Source of the DNA: Bacteroidota bacterium
Lineage (GTDB): Bacteria; Bacteroidota; Bacteroidia; Bacteroidales; JADFUO01
DNA length: 10,608 nt
Assembly: GCA_030614305.1 (NCBI GenBank)
Contig: JAUWKH010000034.1
Span: forward strand, 1 to 10,608
Reading direction: 5' to 3'
The translations under genes were made by a program, and so were the position numbers. This document shows positions 6,956 to 9,940 of the stretch, piece after piece (position 1 is the stretch's first letter; each line of letters starts with the position of its first letter). The notes beneath the pieces were generated by a model. The model worked only from the letters and a program-made list of their open reading frames with translations. It was not told where the DNA came from and ran no database searches.

Positions 6956-7157
6956 ACTTCTGATGCTGATACCCATACGGGCTAATGAAACGAAGTAAAC
7001 GACACGAAGTTAGTACGTATGTATCCGTACGACTAAAAGGAGTCCTTATGGATGGACTTCATGTCGCTGGATGCTGGATACCCATACGGGATAAAACTTC
7101 GTGTCGCTGGATGCTGGATACCCATACGGGCTAACTTCGTGTCGCTGGATGCTGGTT
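6956..7157. repeat. 38-40 bp tandem repeat island with an inverted copy
   Basis: Two nearly identical 35-bp units start at 7056 and 7096. They begin ACTTC, contain GTCGCTGGATGCTGG, end ATACCCATACGGG, and differ at one base. A truncated third unit starts at 7134. A shorter copy lacking 11 internal bases starts at 6956. Between them, 7000-7013 is the perfect reverse complement of 7131-7144 (14 bp), and small stems such as AGTCC/GGACT (7041-7045 with 7054-7058) occur. The block is visibly richer in G+C than its surroundings, which suggests an acquired or dispersed element. No encoded protein is credible. Confidence 0.85.
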
Positions 7158-7437: not shown

Positions 7438-7959
7438 TCAGCCCTCTAACAATCTTCGCTTTTGTTCTTTTTTCAGTTCTTCAGGAGTCCATATATCATT
7501 TACCGAATCACAATAATTCACCTGAAAACAACTTGGGCAATCACCACTACAGCCATCTATATGCCAACCGAAATTATCAGGCAAAACTTCGTGAGGTTCA
7601 TGTAAATAATCTTCTGTTAAAAAACGATATGAAACTTCAACAGGGACTTTATCTGATACATCATAAGAGAAACCCTGATCTTCGAAGCACTTGATAAGTA
7701 AATTGAATTTTGAATTTATTTCATCTTTAGATAATTTTTCAGCAGGAGGGAAATCATCAGGATTTACATCAATTATTTCATAAAGCGGTTTGAGTTCTGC
7801 TTCTTCAAACGCAATAATATTTTTCATAAACTGGTTTTCGATTTCAGGATCAATATCCGAGCATCTGTGAATATCACCACCTTTGAGAATTATTTTTGAT
7901 TCTAAAAGGAAGTTTTCCTGTTCCAGTTTTTCTTTTTTGCTAAGTTCTTTGTCTTTCAT
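7438..7959 (-). CDS. Hypothetical acidic protein with C-terminal four-cysteine cluster
   Basis: I do not recognise a named family. The 173 residues are highly charged and acidic, with no signal peptide or membrane segment, so it is probably cytosolic. A lysine- and glutamate-rich, probably helical N-terminus (1-30) leads into DPEIENQFMKNIIAFEEAE (37-55). A central helical part follows (76-95), then RFLTEDYLHEPHEV (112-125). Near the end C137-x3-C141-x2-C144-x5-C150, within GWHIDGCSGDCPSCF, could bind zinc or an Fe-S cluster; this is inference. The middle part reminds me of small uncharacterised Bacteroidota proteins with a PEIE...FE start, but those usually lack the cysteines. It stands alone on the minus strand with its own good promoter (8018-8049), which supports it as a real gene. 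Confidence 0.75.
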   Translation of the reverse strand: MKDKELSKKEKLEQENFLLESKIILKGGDIHRCSDIDPEIENQFMKNIIAFEEAELKPLYEIIDVNPDDFPPAEKLSKDEINSKFNLLIKCFEDQGFSYDVSDKVPVEVSYRFLTEDYLHEPHEVLPDNFGWHIDGCSGDCPSCFQVNYCDSVNDIWTPEELKKEQKRRLLEG

Positions 7960-8017
7960 TTGTCAGAGGTTTTTATTTAAGGAAGATTTGTTTTTATTGT
8001 GACATTTTTAGAAGAAA

Positions 8018-8049
8018 CAAATTTATAAAAATCTTGTCAATTATGCAAA
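8018..8049 (-). promoter_or_regulatory. Bacteroidota-type promoter for the minus-strand hypothetical gene
   Basis: Read on the minus strand, TTTG (8049-8046) is followed after 20 nt by TAAATTTG (8025-8018). This fits the Bacteroidota -33 TTTG / -7 TAnnTTTG pattern. It predicts a transcript start near 8011 and a 5' untranslated region of about 50 nt before the ATG at 7959. Confidence 0.6.
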
Positions 8050-8155
8050 CAGAATGAATAAATAATATTCAAAACTATTTGTTTTATGAAGTGTTATTGT
8101 AAAATGATAGTTATACGCTTTCACAATATTTTAAAAATAAATTCTATTATAATAT

Positions 8156-8184
8156 TTTGTATATAAAATAAATTTTTAACTTTG
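8156..8184 (+). promoter_or_regulatory. Bacteroidota-type promoter for metK
   Basis: TTTG at 8156-8159, a 17-nt spacer, then TAACTTTG at 8177-8184 match the -33 / -7 consensus of Bacteroidota housekeeping promoters. The predicted start near 8190 places the SAM-II aptamer within the first ten nucleotides of the transcript, leaving a leader of about 300 nt before metK. Confidence 0.75.
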
Positions 8185-8197
8185 CCGTCATTATTTA

Positions 8198-8246
8198 GTG
8201 GACAGATTTGATTGATTGCAACCACGGGAAAAAATGCTAAAACAAT
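8198..8246 (+). promoter_or_regulatory. SAM-II riboswitch aptamer in the metK leader
   Basis: An H-type pseudoknot that binds S-adenosylmethionine. P1 is GUGG (8198-8201) with CCAC (8222-8225). The loop holds GAUUU (8205-8209) and AUUGCAA (8215-8221). After a 10-nt purine-rich linker comes GCUAAA (8236-8241). Pseudoknot helix P2 pairs C8219-G8236, G8218-C8237, U8217-A8239 and U8216-A8240 with U8238 left out, then AUUG (8211-8214) with CAAU (8243-8246). These match the conserved blocks and bulged U of the crystallised env12 metX SAM-II RNA as I recall it. P1 is short (4 bp) and three extra bases (ACA) precede GAUUU. The position just after the promoter and ahead of the SAM synthetase gene fits negative feedback by the end product. 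No covariance search was run. Confidence 0.85.
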
Positions 8247-8335
8247 GCTTTTACCTGCCAATCATCAATCTCCCAATAAAAGTAGAAAAATTAAGCACTG
8301 TTTTATTAGTTCATATAATTGAAATAATGGAATGA
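8234..8335 (+). other. Possible 33-codon leader ORF starting inside the aptamer
   Basis: ATG at 8234-8236 within the AAAUGCUAAA segment opens a frame of 33 codons ending TGA at 8333-8335 (begins MLKQCFYLPIINLPIKV). A second, overlapping frame starts with ATG at 8245-8247 in the P2 strand and runs 25 codons to TGA at 8320-8322 (begins MLLPANHQSPNKS). Neither is in frame with metK, has a Shine-Dalgarno sequence or resembles a known protein. They may be chance, but ligand binding would hide both start codons. Confidence 0.2.
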
Positions 8336-8422
8336 TGGAGTAATGGAGTAATGGAGTATTGGAGTATTGGAGTATTGGAATGATGGAGTTTTAAATCATT
8401 ATTCCATTATTCCACTATTCCA
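8327..8422 (+). repeat. 8-bp tandem repeat array forming a long hairpin in the metK leader
   Basis: Eight consecutive 8-bp units run from 8327 to 8390: ATGGAATG, three ATGGAGTA, two TTGGAGTA, TTGGAATG and ATGGAGTT. A complementary arm of TTATTCCA-type units lies at 8399-8422. The inner part pairs as 8376-8389 with 8401-8414 (14 pairs, two G-U) around an 11-nt loop. After one mismatch it continues as 8368-8374 with 8416-8422. A T6 run (8434-8439) lies 11 nt beyond, too far for a canonical terminator. It is probably a dispersed palindromic element lodged between riboswitch and gene. Confidence 0.8.
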
Positions 8423-8492
8423 GTAGAATTTAGTTTTTTAAGATATTAAAGATATATTAATAGTTAATTAATAATTTAAAAACTTTTATATT

Positions 8493-9794
8493 ATGGGATA
8501 TTTATTTACGTCAGAATCAGTATCAGAGGGACACCCTGATAAAATTGCAGATCAAGTTTCGGATGCATTACTGGATGAAATGCTGCGTTATGACCCGGAG
8601 TCAAAAGTAGCATGCGAAACATTAGTTACAACAGGCTTAACAATTTGTAGCGGAGAAGTCCTGACAACCGGTTATGCCGATGTTCAGAAGATTGCCAGAA
8701 GAGTTATTAAAAGAATCGGTTATACAAATGCCGATTACCGTTTTGATTATAATTCATGCGGGGTAATTTCAACAATCCATGAACAATCACCTGATATCAG
8801 GCAGGGAGTTGTAAGAAAGAAAAAAGAGGAGCAAGGCGCCGGCGACCAGGGGATGATGTTCGGTTATGCTTGCACTGAAATGGATAATTTGATGCCAATG
8901 CCTATTGAACTTGCTCATATTTTCCTGCAGGAATTAGCTGCAATTCGCAGGGAAGGTAAAAAAATGAAATACCTGCGACCCGATTCCAAATCGCAAATTA
9001 CCATTGAATATGGCGACAATAACAAACCTGTTAGAATTGATACCATCGTAATTTCAACACAACATGATGATTTTGATACAGAAGAAAACATGTTGAAAAA
9101 AATTAATGACGATGTTAGAAATATTCTTATTCCGCGTGTTAAAAAAACTTTACCCGACAGAGTGAAAAAATTATTTAAAAGCGATTTCAGATTATTGGTT
9201 AATCCAACAGGGAAGTTCGTAATAGGCGGACCGCACGGTGATACCGGACTAACAGGAAGAAAAATTATTGTTGACACTTATGGAGGTCGCGGTGCTCATG
9301 GCGGAGGTGCATTTTCAGGAAAAGATTCATCAAAAGTTGACCGTTCCGCAGCTTACGCAGCACGTCATATTGCAAAAAATCTGGTTGCTGCCGGCGTTGC
9401 TGATGAGGTGCTTGTTCAGGTTGCCTATGCTATTGGTGTTGCCGAACCGGTTGGTTTGTATATCAATACTTTTAAAACCTCTAAAGTAAAAAACAAAGAC
9501 GGTAAAAAACTTACAGATGGTGAAATTGCTGAAAAAGTTAATAAAATTTTTGATATGCGTCCCTATGCAATTATTAAGCGATTTGGATTAAAAAATCCAA
9601 TATTTGAAAGAGCGGCTTCTTATGGACATTTTGGCAGAGATCATTATTTTGAAGATGTTGAAGTATTTTACAGCAATGGAGATACAAAAACAAAGATTAT
9701 TGACGGAGAAGAAAAACACTTTAAAAATGTTGAATTCTTTGCCTGGGAAAAATTGGATTATGTTGATAAAATCAAAAAAGAATTTAGTCTTTAA
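8493..9794 (+). CDS. metK: S-adenosylmethionine synthetase (methionine adenosyltransferase)
   Basis: Makes S-adenosylmethionine from methionine and ATP in the cytosol, supplying methyl groups for the cell. The protein has 433 residues, slightly longer than the roughly 384 of E. coli MetK, as is usual for Bacteroidota-type enzymes. Diagnostic motifs: [13 protein letters not shown] (5-17) with the ATP-contacting H14 and the metal ligand D16, [12 protein letters not shown] (115-126), [13 protein letters not shown] (245-257) and [16 protein letters not shown] (270-285), the phosphate-binding loop. An insertion rich in charged residues near 190-230 accounts for part of the extra length. No Shine-Dalgarno sequence is seen before the ATG, but the N-terminus fits the family exactly. 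Expression is probably controlled by the SAM-II aptamer about 246 nt upstream. It is monocistronic as far as visible, because the next gene is convergent. Confidence 0.98.
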
Positions 9795-9940
9795 TTAGTG
9801 ACTGTCCATAAAGTCAAACAATTTTGAATTAAAGCACCAGATAACAAATAACAAATAAATTCCAAATATCAATTATCAATACGTGCTAAATTATTTCTGT
9901 TTTCAGGAATTCCGGCAATGAGATCACAAATACGTTTTCT
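9795..9940. other. Short convergent intergenic region
   Basis: This 146-bp gap between metK and the T9SS cargo gene includes the AT-rich direct repeat ATAACAAATAACAAATAA (9841-9858) and related AAATATCAATTATCAAT sequence just after it. I see no convincing stem-plus-T-run terminator for either convergent gene. Confidence 0.5.

Follow-up and report, generated by a model that had tools for sequence, protein, structure and literature searches.

SAM-II leaders of metK in Bacteroidota and a linker that may switch between aptamer and start codon

The locus described here raises a question of distance. In the window, by which we mean the whole stretch of 10,608 nucleotides analysed (contig JAUWKH010000034.1 of a Bacteroidota bacterium), a SAM-II riboswitch stands upstream of metK, and the start codon of metK lies far beyond the last strand of the pseudoknot. 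Passages of PMC6847099 describe the Bacteroidetes as having no Shine-Dalgarno (SD) sequences and report that initiation in Flavobacterium johnsoniae is tuned by structure at the start site; what translational riboswitches usually act on is thus missing in these bacteria. How, then, might the aptamer reach its gene? The start of metK is far past the pseudoknot and there is no ribosome site in P2; the mechanism most probably resides in the linker between the two.

The aptamer and its gene

The element is a SAM-II riboswitch upstream of metK (Table 1). A cmscan of the whole window gave RF01726, SAM-II (long loop), as the only match above threshold, covering all 60 model positions with an E value of 2.7e-11. 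The initial annotation had placed a SAM-II riboswitch at 8198-8246, which is the stretch bounded by the 5' end of P1 and the 3' end of P2a, and had named both pseudoknot helices, GAUUU, AUUGCAA, GCUAAA and a bulged U. Sequence and covariation agree with each of these: P1 is GUGG/CCAC, GAUUU lies at 8205-8209, UUGCAA at 8216-8221, and GCUAAA at 8236-8241 with U8238 bulged. The covariance-model search that it had suggested for 8180-8260 scores well above the gathering threshold, and the related metK leaders that it had proposed to align keep the conserved blocks and P2, with covariation in P1 and P2 across 174 leaders. Membership in RF01726 is supported by the score, the compensatory changes in P1, the P2 pseudoknot with its bulged U and A-rich loop, and the position upstream of a gene of the SAM/methionine pathway. 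That the window RNA binds SAM is something we infer.

Table 1. Features of the metK leader and its surroundings in the window
Feature	Position	Strand	Basis
Promoter, Bacteroidota type: TTTG 8156-8159, 17 nt, TAACTTTG 8177-8184	8156..8184	+	sequence match
SAM-II (long loop) aptamer, RF01726	8192..8250	+	66 bits, gathering score 44
P1 helix 8198-8201/8222-8225, loop 1, and 5' strands of P2a 8211-8214 and P2b 8216-8220	8198..8225	+	sequence, covariation
Pseudoknot 3' strand: P2b 8235-8240 (U8238 bulged), P2a 8243-8246	8235..8246	+	sequence, covariation
Putative anti-aptamer arm, pairing with aptamer 5' half 8199-8220	8256..8275	+	18 pairs with bulges, -13.0 kcal/mol
Putative sequestor 5' arm; 8271-8275 common with anti-aptamer arm	8271..8283	+	pairs with 8482-8498
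Stretch of about 170 bases absent from two same-genus metK leaders	8277..8450	+	comparison; edges approximate
Putative sequestor 3' arm, over UG of the metK AUG (8493-8495) and codon 2	8482..8498	+	duplex with 8271-8283
metK, methionine adenosyltransferase, 433 aa	8493..9794	+	TIGR01034 513.7 bits, cut-off 309.4; ORF

To compare this leader with others we collected 184 loci, taken as best-scoring Rfam matches and not as a random draw. They comprise the window's own locus, 29 loci from 60 relatives, 25 new ones from the order, 29 from a draw of the phylum, and 100 regions taken by place from the listed rows of the relatives and order scans, where the order-scan rows available for picking were those among the matches listed. 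An aptamer text pattern fitted 179 of the 184 (the misfits being L112, L171, L174, L176 and L183); without the metH locus L012 and four duplicates there remained 174 distinct metK leaders. Leaving out L128, L138 and L154, whose start is unusual or whose linker is very short, gave 171 leaders, of which 149 come from the window's order and the remaining 22 from different orders of the same class. The 149 were reduced to a dereplicated set of 133 once similar linkers were removed, and 129 of these, with linkers of up to 150 nt, were used for ensemble folding. A stricter set holds 81 leaders whose metK 5' ends are less than 80% identical.

In P1, standard pairs occur at positions 1 to 4 in 173, 173, 174 and 173 of the 174 distinct leaders, and the second pair takes all four Watson-Crick types (TA 145, AT 21, CG 6, GC 1). 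The A-U pair of P2b is kept in 173 of 174. Pairs 1 to 5 of P2a are standard in 158, 135, 126, 99 and 66 leaders, so that P2a weakens outward; its pair 3 alternates between TA (56) and CG (55).

A promoter had also been claimed directly ahead of the aptamer, and TTTG-N17-TAACTTTG is found there; transcription would be expected to start near 8189. The element TAnnTTTG, named as the sigma-A consensus at -12 to -5 in the available text of PMC9723704, precedes the aptamer in 150 of 173 leaders, compared with 4.2% of shuffles. The placement ahead of the SAM synthetase gene stands insofar as metK is the next gene. It is not close behind, however: 242 nt separate the end of the Rfam match from the metK ATG, and 251 nt separate GCUAAA from it, where the median across the 174 leaders is 75 nt and the 10th percentile 63 nt. 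Further upstream, a 173-aa ORF on the minus strand that diverges from metK (7438-7959) matched nothing in Pfam or NCBIfam at E 0.001, and a 40-bp tandem repeat occupies 7056-7155 in about 2.6 copies.

The initial annotation regarded SAM-II control of metK itself as less usual in a Bacteroidota. The comparison speaks against this. Among the best-scoring matches, the gene after the aptamer is metK in 178 of the 179 parsed loci and metH in the remaining one, L012. RF01726 lies above cut-off in 37 of 60 relatives, in 214 of 295 genomes of the order and in 62 of the 392 in a draw from the phylum, the window's own genome being included each time. Thirty named records found by pattern, which include the same contigs as L012, L013 and L083, give a similar picture: 28 lead to metK, another carries the metH copy, and the last breaks off short of the gene. 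SAM-II upstream of metK is by itself ordinary in Bacteroidota. Weinberg 2010 (PMC2864571) lists the "SAM-II long loops" motif for Bacteroidetes and marine sequences, and the portion of its text that we consulted does not tie the long-loop form to metK.

Several observations accompany this survey. The metH-linked element (L012:1490-1548) is a second, nearly identical SAM-II copy in the same-genus genome G001, upstream of a metH match that is part of a gene cut by the locus end. It shares aptamer and linker with the metK leader up to CTCCC and diverges beyond, and the CTCCC end of this common block may mark the boundary of a functional unit. The metK leader of a record titled Alphaproteobacteria (L207) is nearly identical to the one in the Bacteroidales record L214, and L207 is probably a misnamed assembly. 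SAM-I matches, for example at L170:1501-1587 and L170:2992-3087, share genomes with SAM-II in 61 of the 69 SAM-II genomes of the phylum draw (7 of these 69 having SAM-II matches below cut-off) and in 8 of 37 in the relatives draw; the window's own genome gave no SAM-I match. A 2007 survey (PMC2258182, in the passages seen) reported no species having both. By best match, the ORF after six SAM-I loci is O-acetylhomoserine sulfhydrylase in three, a cystathionine gamma-synthase/lyase type in one, aspartate kinase in one and metH in one, with metK in none.

Two predicted pairings of the linker

One alternative is direct occlusion by the pseudoknot. The 3' strand of P2a in the window is CAAU and contains no SD sequence, and the ATG stands 242 nt past the Rfam match. 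Because metK begins 251 nt past GCUAAA, against the relatives' median of 75, the textbook ribosome site within the pseudoknot does not fit. In a variant, the pseudoknot would hide an AUG at 8234-8236, inside the aptamer, from which a leader frame would be read. AUGCUAAA is present in the window, UGCUAAA is preceded by A in 159 of 174 leaders, and a 2024 review (PMC10907184, as excerpted) groups SAM-II under direct occlusion. However, the frame from this AUG is not more open than its neighbour (median 18 codons to a stop, compared with 20 in frame 2, across 171 leaders), the remaining frame stops at once in all 171, the first base of the AUG is C in 3 of 174 and its U is lost in one, and in L010 the frame closes after four codons. 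Taken with the distance to metK, this leaves direct occlusion very improbable. Control by a leader peptide starting at the aptamer AUG was likewise set aside, a conserved frame not being found across the 174 and 171 leaders.

To compare a leader's own linker with those of other genomes, linkers were swapped between genomes and the duplex energies compared by permutation, with the phylogenetic tree ignored. The partners were the strands of the aptamer and the start region of metK, taken as -12 to +12 around its ATG.

The 5' strand of the aptamer pairs with its own linker at a mean of -15.59 kcal/mol, compared with -13.21 for exchanged linkers (sd 0.195; 133 leaders), a value matched by none of 20,000 tree-blind permutations. 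The double-centred term is negative in 115 of the 133. Composition explains little of this, since shuffled and reversed linkers give z scores of only -1.8 and -1.9; in the stricter set of 81 the signal persists (z -10.2, 0 of 5000 permutations as good). The 3' strand of the aptamer, tested in the same 133 order leaders, gave no own-specific signal (-4.34 for own and for exchanged linkers). Exact pentamer matches are mixed: GATTG is answered by CAATC in 43 of 61 and GGATG by CATCC in 4 of 4, but GACTG finds CAGTC in only 6 of 30.

Among the 22 other-order leaders, the linker also pairs strongly with the aptamer (-16.50, compared with -9.51 for shuffled linkers), and the own-specific anti-aptamer signal is weak, with 212 of 5000 permutations equalling it. 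Here the 3' strand gives -7.43 versus -6.93, with 43 of 5000 permutations as good, and a TTTAG complementary to that strand occurs in 11 of 22 leaders, compared with 14 of 133 in the order. This element is perhaps a second style of anti-aptamer. Several of the leaders from other orders of the class (L156-L184) carry long hairpins in the A-rich loop.

The start region of metK behaves similarly. With its own linker it reaches -7.72, compared with -6.62 for exchanged linkers, and none of 20,000 permutations, again ignoring the tree, did as well (133 leaders). The signal holds in the stricter set of 81 (z -7.7, 0 of 5000) and in the 22 other-order leaders (z -2.9). Shuffled linkers (z -0.7), reversed linkers (z -1.5) and the coding stretch from +12 to +36 (z -1.1) served as controls. 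It is absent from 136 leaders of other genes at the same loci (z -0.6), where the start was the first ATG of ORFs of at least 150 codons, and from 60 metK leaders of two families, the best 30 loci each, that have no upstream SAM-II text match (z +1.6). Divided by start type, the signal is z -4.6 for the 69 ATGGG starts and z -2.9 for the 64 others, of which only 33 individually prefer their own linker. The best linker-start duplex covers the AUG in 126 of 133 leaders, a figure in which some bias toward AUG coverage is expected because the start region served as query. A simple rule by which CCC in the linker answers AUGGG was rejected: TCCC precedes 52 of 77 ATGGG starts and 26 of 72 others, and these rows are related by ancestry, which is why permutation was used instead.

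This comparative evidence points to a linker that pairs sequence-specifically with both the 5' half of the aptamer and the start region of metK. Like the aptamer and its metK target, these two own-specific predicted pairings are what comparison shows.

In the window taken alone, neither helix is very significant against shuffles. The anti-aptamer duplex, computed with a slightly longer strand, reaches -13.9 kcal/mol, and 56 of 2000 shuffles are equal or better. The predicted sequestor has 13 pairs at -12.6 kcal/mol, as good as which are 44 of 2000 shuffles within 60 nt and 53 of 500 over the whole linker. This leader also holds the stretch that the same-genus leaders L013 and L083 do not have: these share aptamer and linker with the window up to CTCCCAA and then pass through a short AT-rich stretch to metK. 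The extra stretch holds an 8-bp tandem repeat at 8325-8389 (of the TAATGGAG type) and an inverted copy at 8397-8425, so that a long hairpin is possible. The window's own genome matches it in part at 21 other sites, in both orientations; of the 15 sites examined, 13 fall outside ORFs of at least 300 nt. The hairpin falls within the loop that the sequestor arms enclose, and pairing of these arms is still possible.

A proposed switch and its alternatives

We put a probability of roughly 55% on the reading that this long-loop SAM-II riboswitch represses metK at high SAM through an SD-independent switch in the linker. At low SAM, the C-rich, G-poor linker would pair with the 5' half of the aptamer, undoing the aptamer and thereby keeping the linker off metK. 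Once SAM is bound, the pseudoknot would form and free the linker, whose distal part could then pair with the start codon of metK and with codon 2 and block initiation. Both the alternation of the two pairings and the output at translation are steps that we infer. For the phylum we lean modestly the same way: across Bacteroidota, SAM-II on metK may share a fast-evolving, SD-independent platform, in which the linker switches from an anti-aptamer helix to masking the start codon and back; compensatory change would have reshaped this platform in each lineage.

The same linker composition could mean something else. Linker positions +10 to +35 past GCUAAA have a C content of 28-33% and a G content of 8-13% (171 leaders), and SAM might expose the linker as an untranslated loading site for Rho, or attenuate transcription in some other way. 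Alpha- and beta-proteobacterial SAM-II elements are often tied to terminators (passages of PMC2258182), and in the portion of PMC9373788 available the terminator of the S. meliloti metA leader is validated and that of metZ predicted. The C-richness, however, can be accounted for by complementarity to the G-rich strand of the aptamer, and a Rho site would not predict own-specific pairing with the start region. A simple scan of 7960-9900 found no intrinsic terminator on the plus strand; the repeat hairpin ends at 8425 and the T run starts at 8434, so the two are not adjacent. We regard attenuation of transcription as unlikely.

Do the two pairings alternate, as the linker switch would require? 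The pseudoknot is beyond the folding program, and as a stand-in for the SAM-bound state we used partition-function folding with the aptamer deleted. Removal of the aptamer raised the linker-start pairs from 4.36 to 6.70, compared with 4.31 to 5.39 for shuffled linkers (p 1.3e-5; 129 leaders), with a rise of more than one pair in 76 of the 129 and a fall of more than one in 4. The start region as a whole has nearly the same number of pairs in the modelled states (8.49 versus 8.00), and the paired fraction from -6 to +9 is likewise similar (0.572 versus 0.538; 145 leaders). The spans of the two pairings overlap in 107 of 133 leaders, barely above the 74% obtained with exchanged start regions, and this overlap does not show the pairings to be mutually exclusive.

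A further alternative is a working aptamer with linker pairings that act in mRNA stability or co-transcriptional folding instead of masking the start codon. Folding does not show the linker pairings to be exclusive, and S. meliloti SAM-II RNAs are stabilised at high SAM according to passages of PMC9373788. Against such a role, the second pairing has the AUG at its centre, covered in the 126 of 133 best duplexes mentioned above, with some query bias, and we judge it distinctly unlikely. The switch between two linker pairings is the best-supported reading of the sequence comparisons and models together.

For the window's own leader, folding predicts only a weak switch. Its minimum-energy fold contains the anti-aptamer core and the sequestor simultaneously, the overlap of their arms being limited to 8271-8275, and the U and G of the AUG are paired at 0.98 and 1.0 without the aptamer and at 0.89 and 0.86 with it. 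The same-genus leaders divide: linker-start pairs of 9.31 versus 7.56 in L013 follow the expected direction, and 8.34 versus 10.63 in L083 the opposite one. One could suppose that the extra repeat stretch broke the switch in this lineage, leaving metK permanently masked or unregulated, which is compatible with any of the group-wide explanations; the long leader and a modelled start codon mostly paired in both states would fit. However, 8195-8274 agrees with L013 in every base and with L083 in all but one, and the window's sequestor is stronger than theirs (-12.6, compared with -7.6 and -7.8). We give a broken switch only a small chance.

Comparison with known SAM-II systems

The aptamer belongs to a known family, and the linker as expression platform looks new. 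Among the open-access matches listed, we recognised by title or abstract no paper on a SAM-II expression platform in Bacteroidota. For a gene leader as common as this one, a linker covarying with the aptamer and with the start region alike would be a concrete and testable answer to the missing SD target. Comparing own with exchanged linkers also offers a route to expression platforms too variable to align.

The likeness to RF01726 extends to P1, P2a, P2b, the bulged U and the A-rich loop, and we saw no difference in the aptamer. The host fits as well, Bacteroidetes being the listed home of the long-loop form in the text seen of PMC2864571. The window's linker lies beyond the 60-position Rfam model, and the portions of the literature available to us contained no description of it. 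Alphaproteobacterial SAM-II elements (on metX, metA and metZ) are of the same aptamer class, and repression by SAM is expected in both. They have their ribosome site in P2 (PMC10907184, as excerpted) or a terminator after it (PMC9373788, likewise), whereas the window has no ribosome site in P2 and instead a linker that can pair with either the aptamer or the start region. A further parallel is the "translation at a distance" described for S. meliloti metA in passages of PMC9373788, where SAM-II acts on a start codon 74 nt downstream. That system needs a Shine-Dalgarno sequence inside the riboswitch, according to the same passages, whereas in the window the start region itself would be the paired partner. 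If this reading is true, the metK leaders would represent an SD-independent counterpart of translational riboswitches in Bacteroidota.
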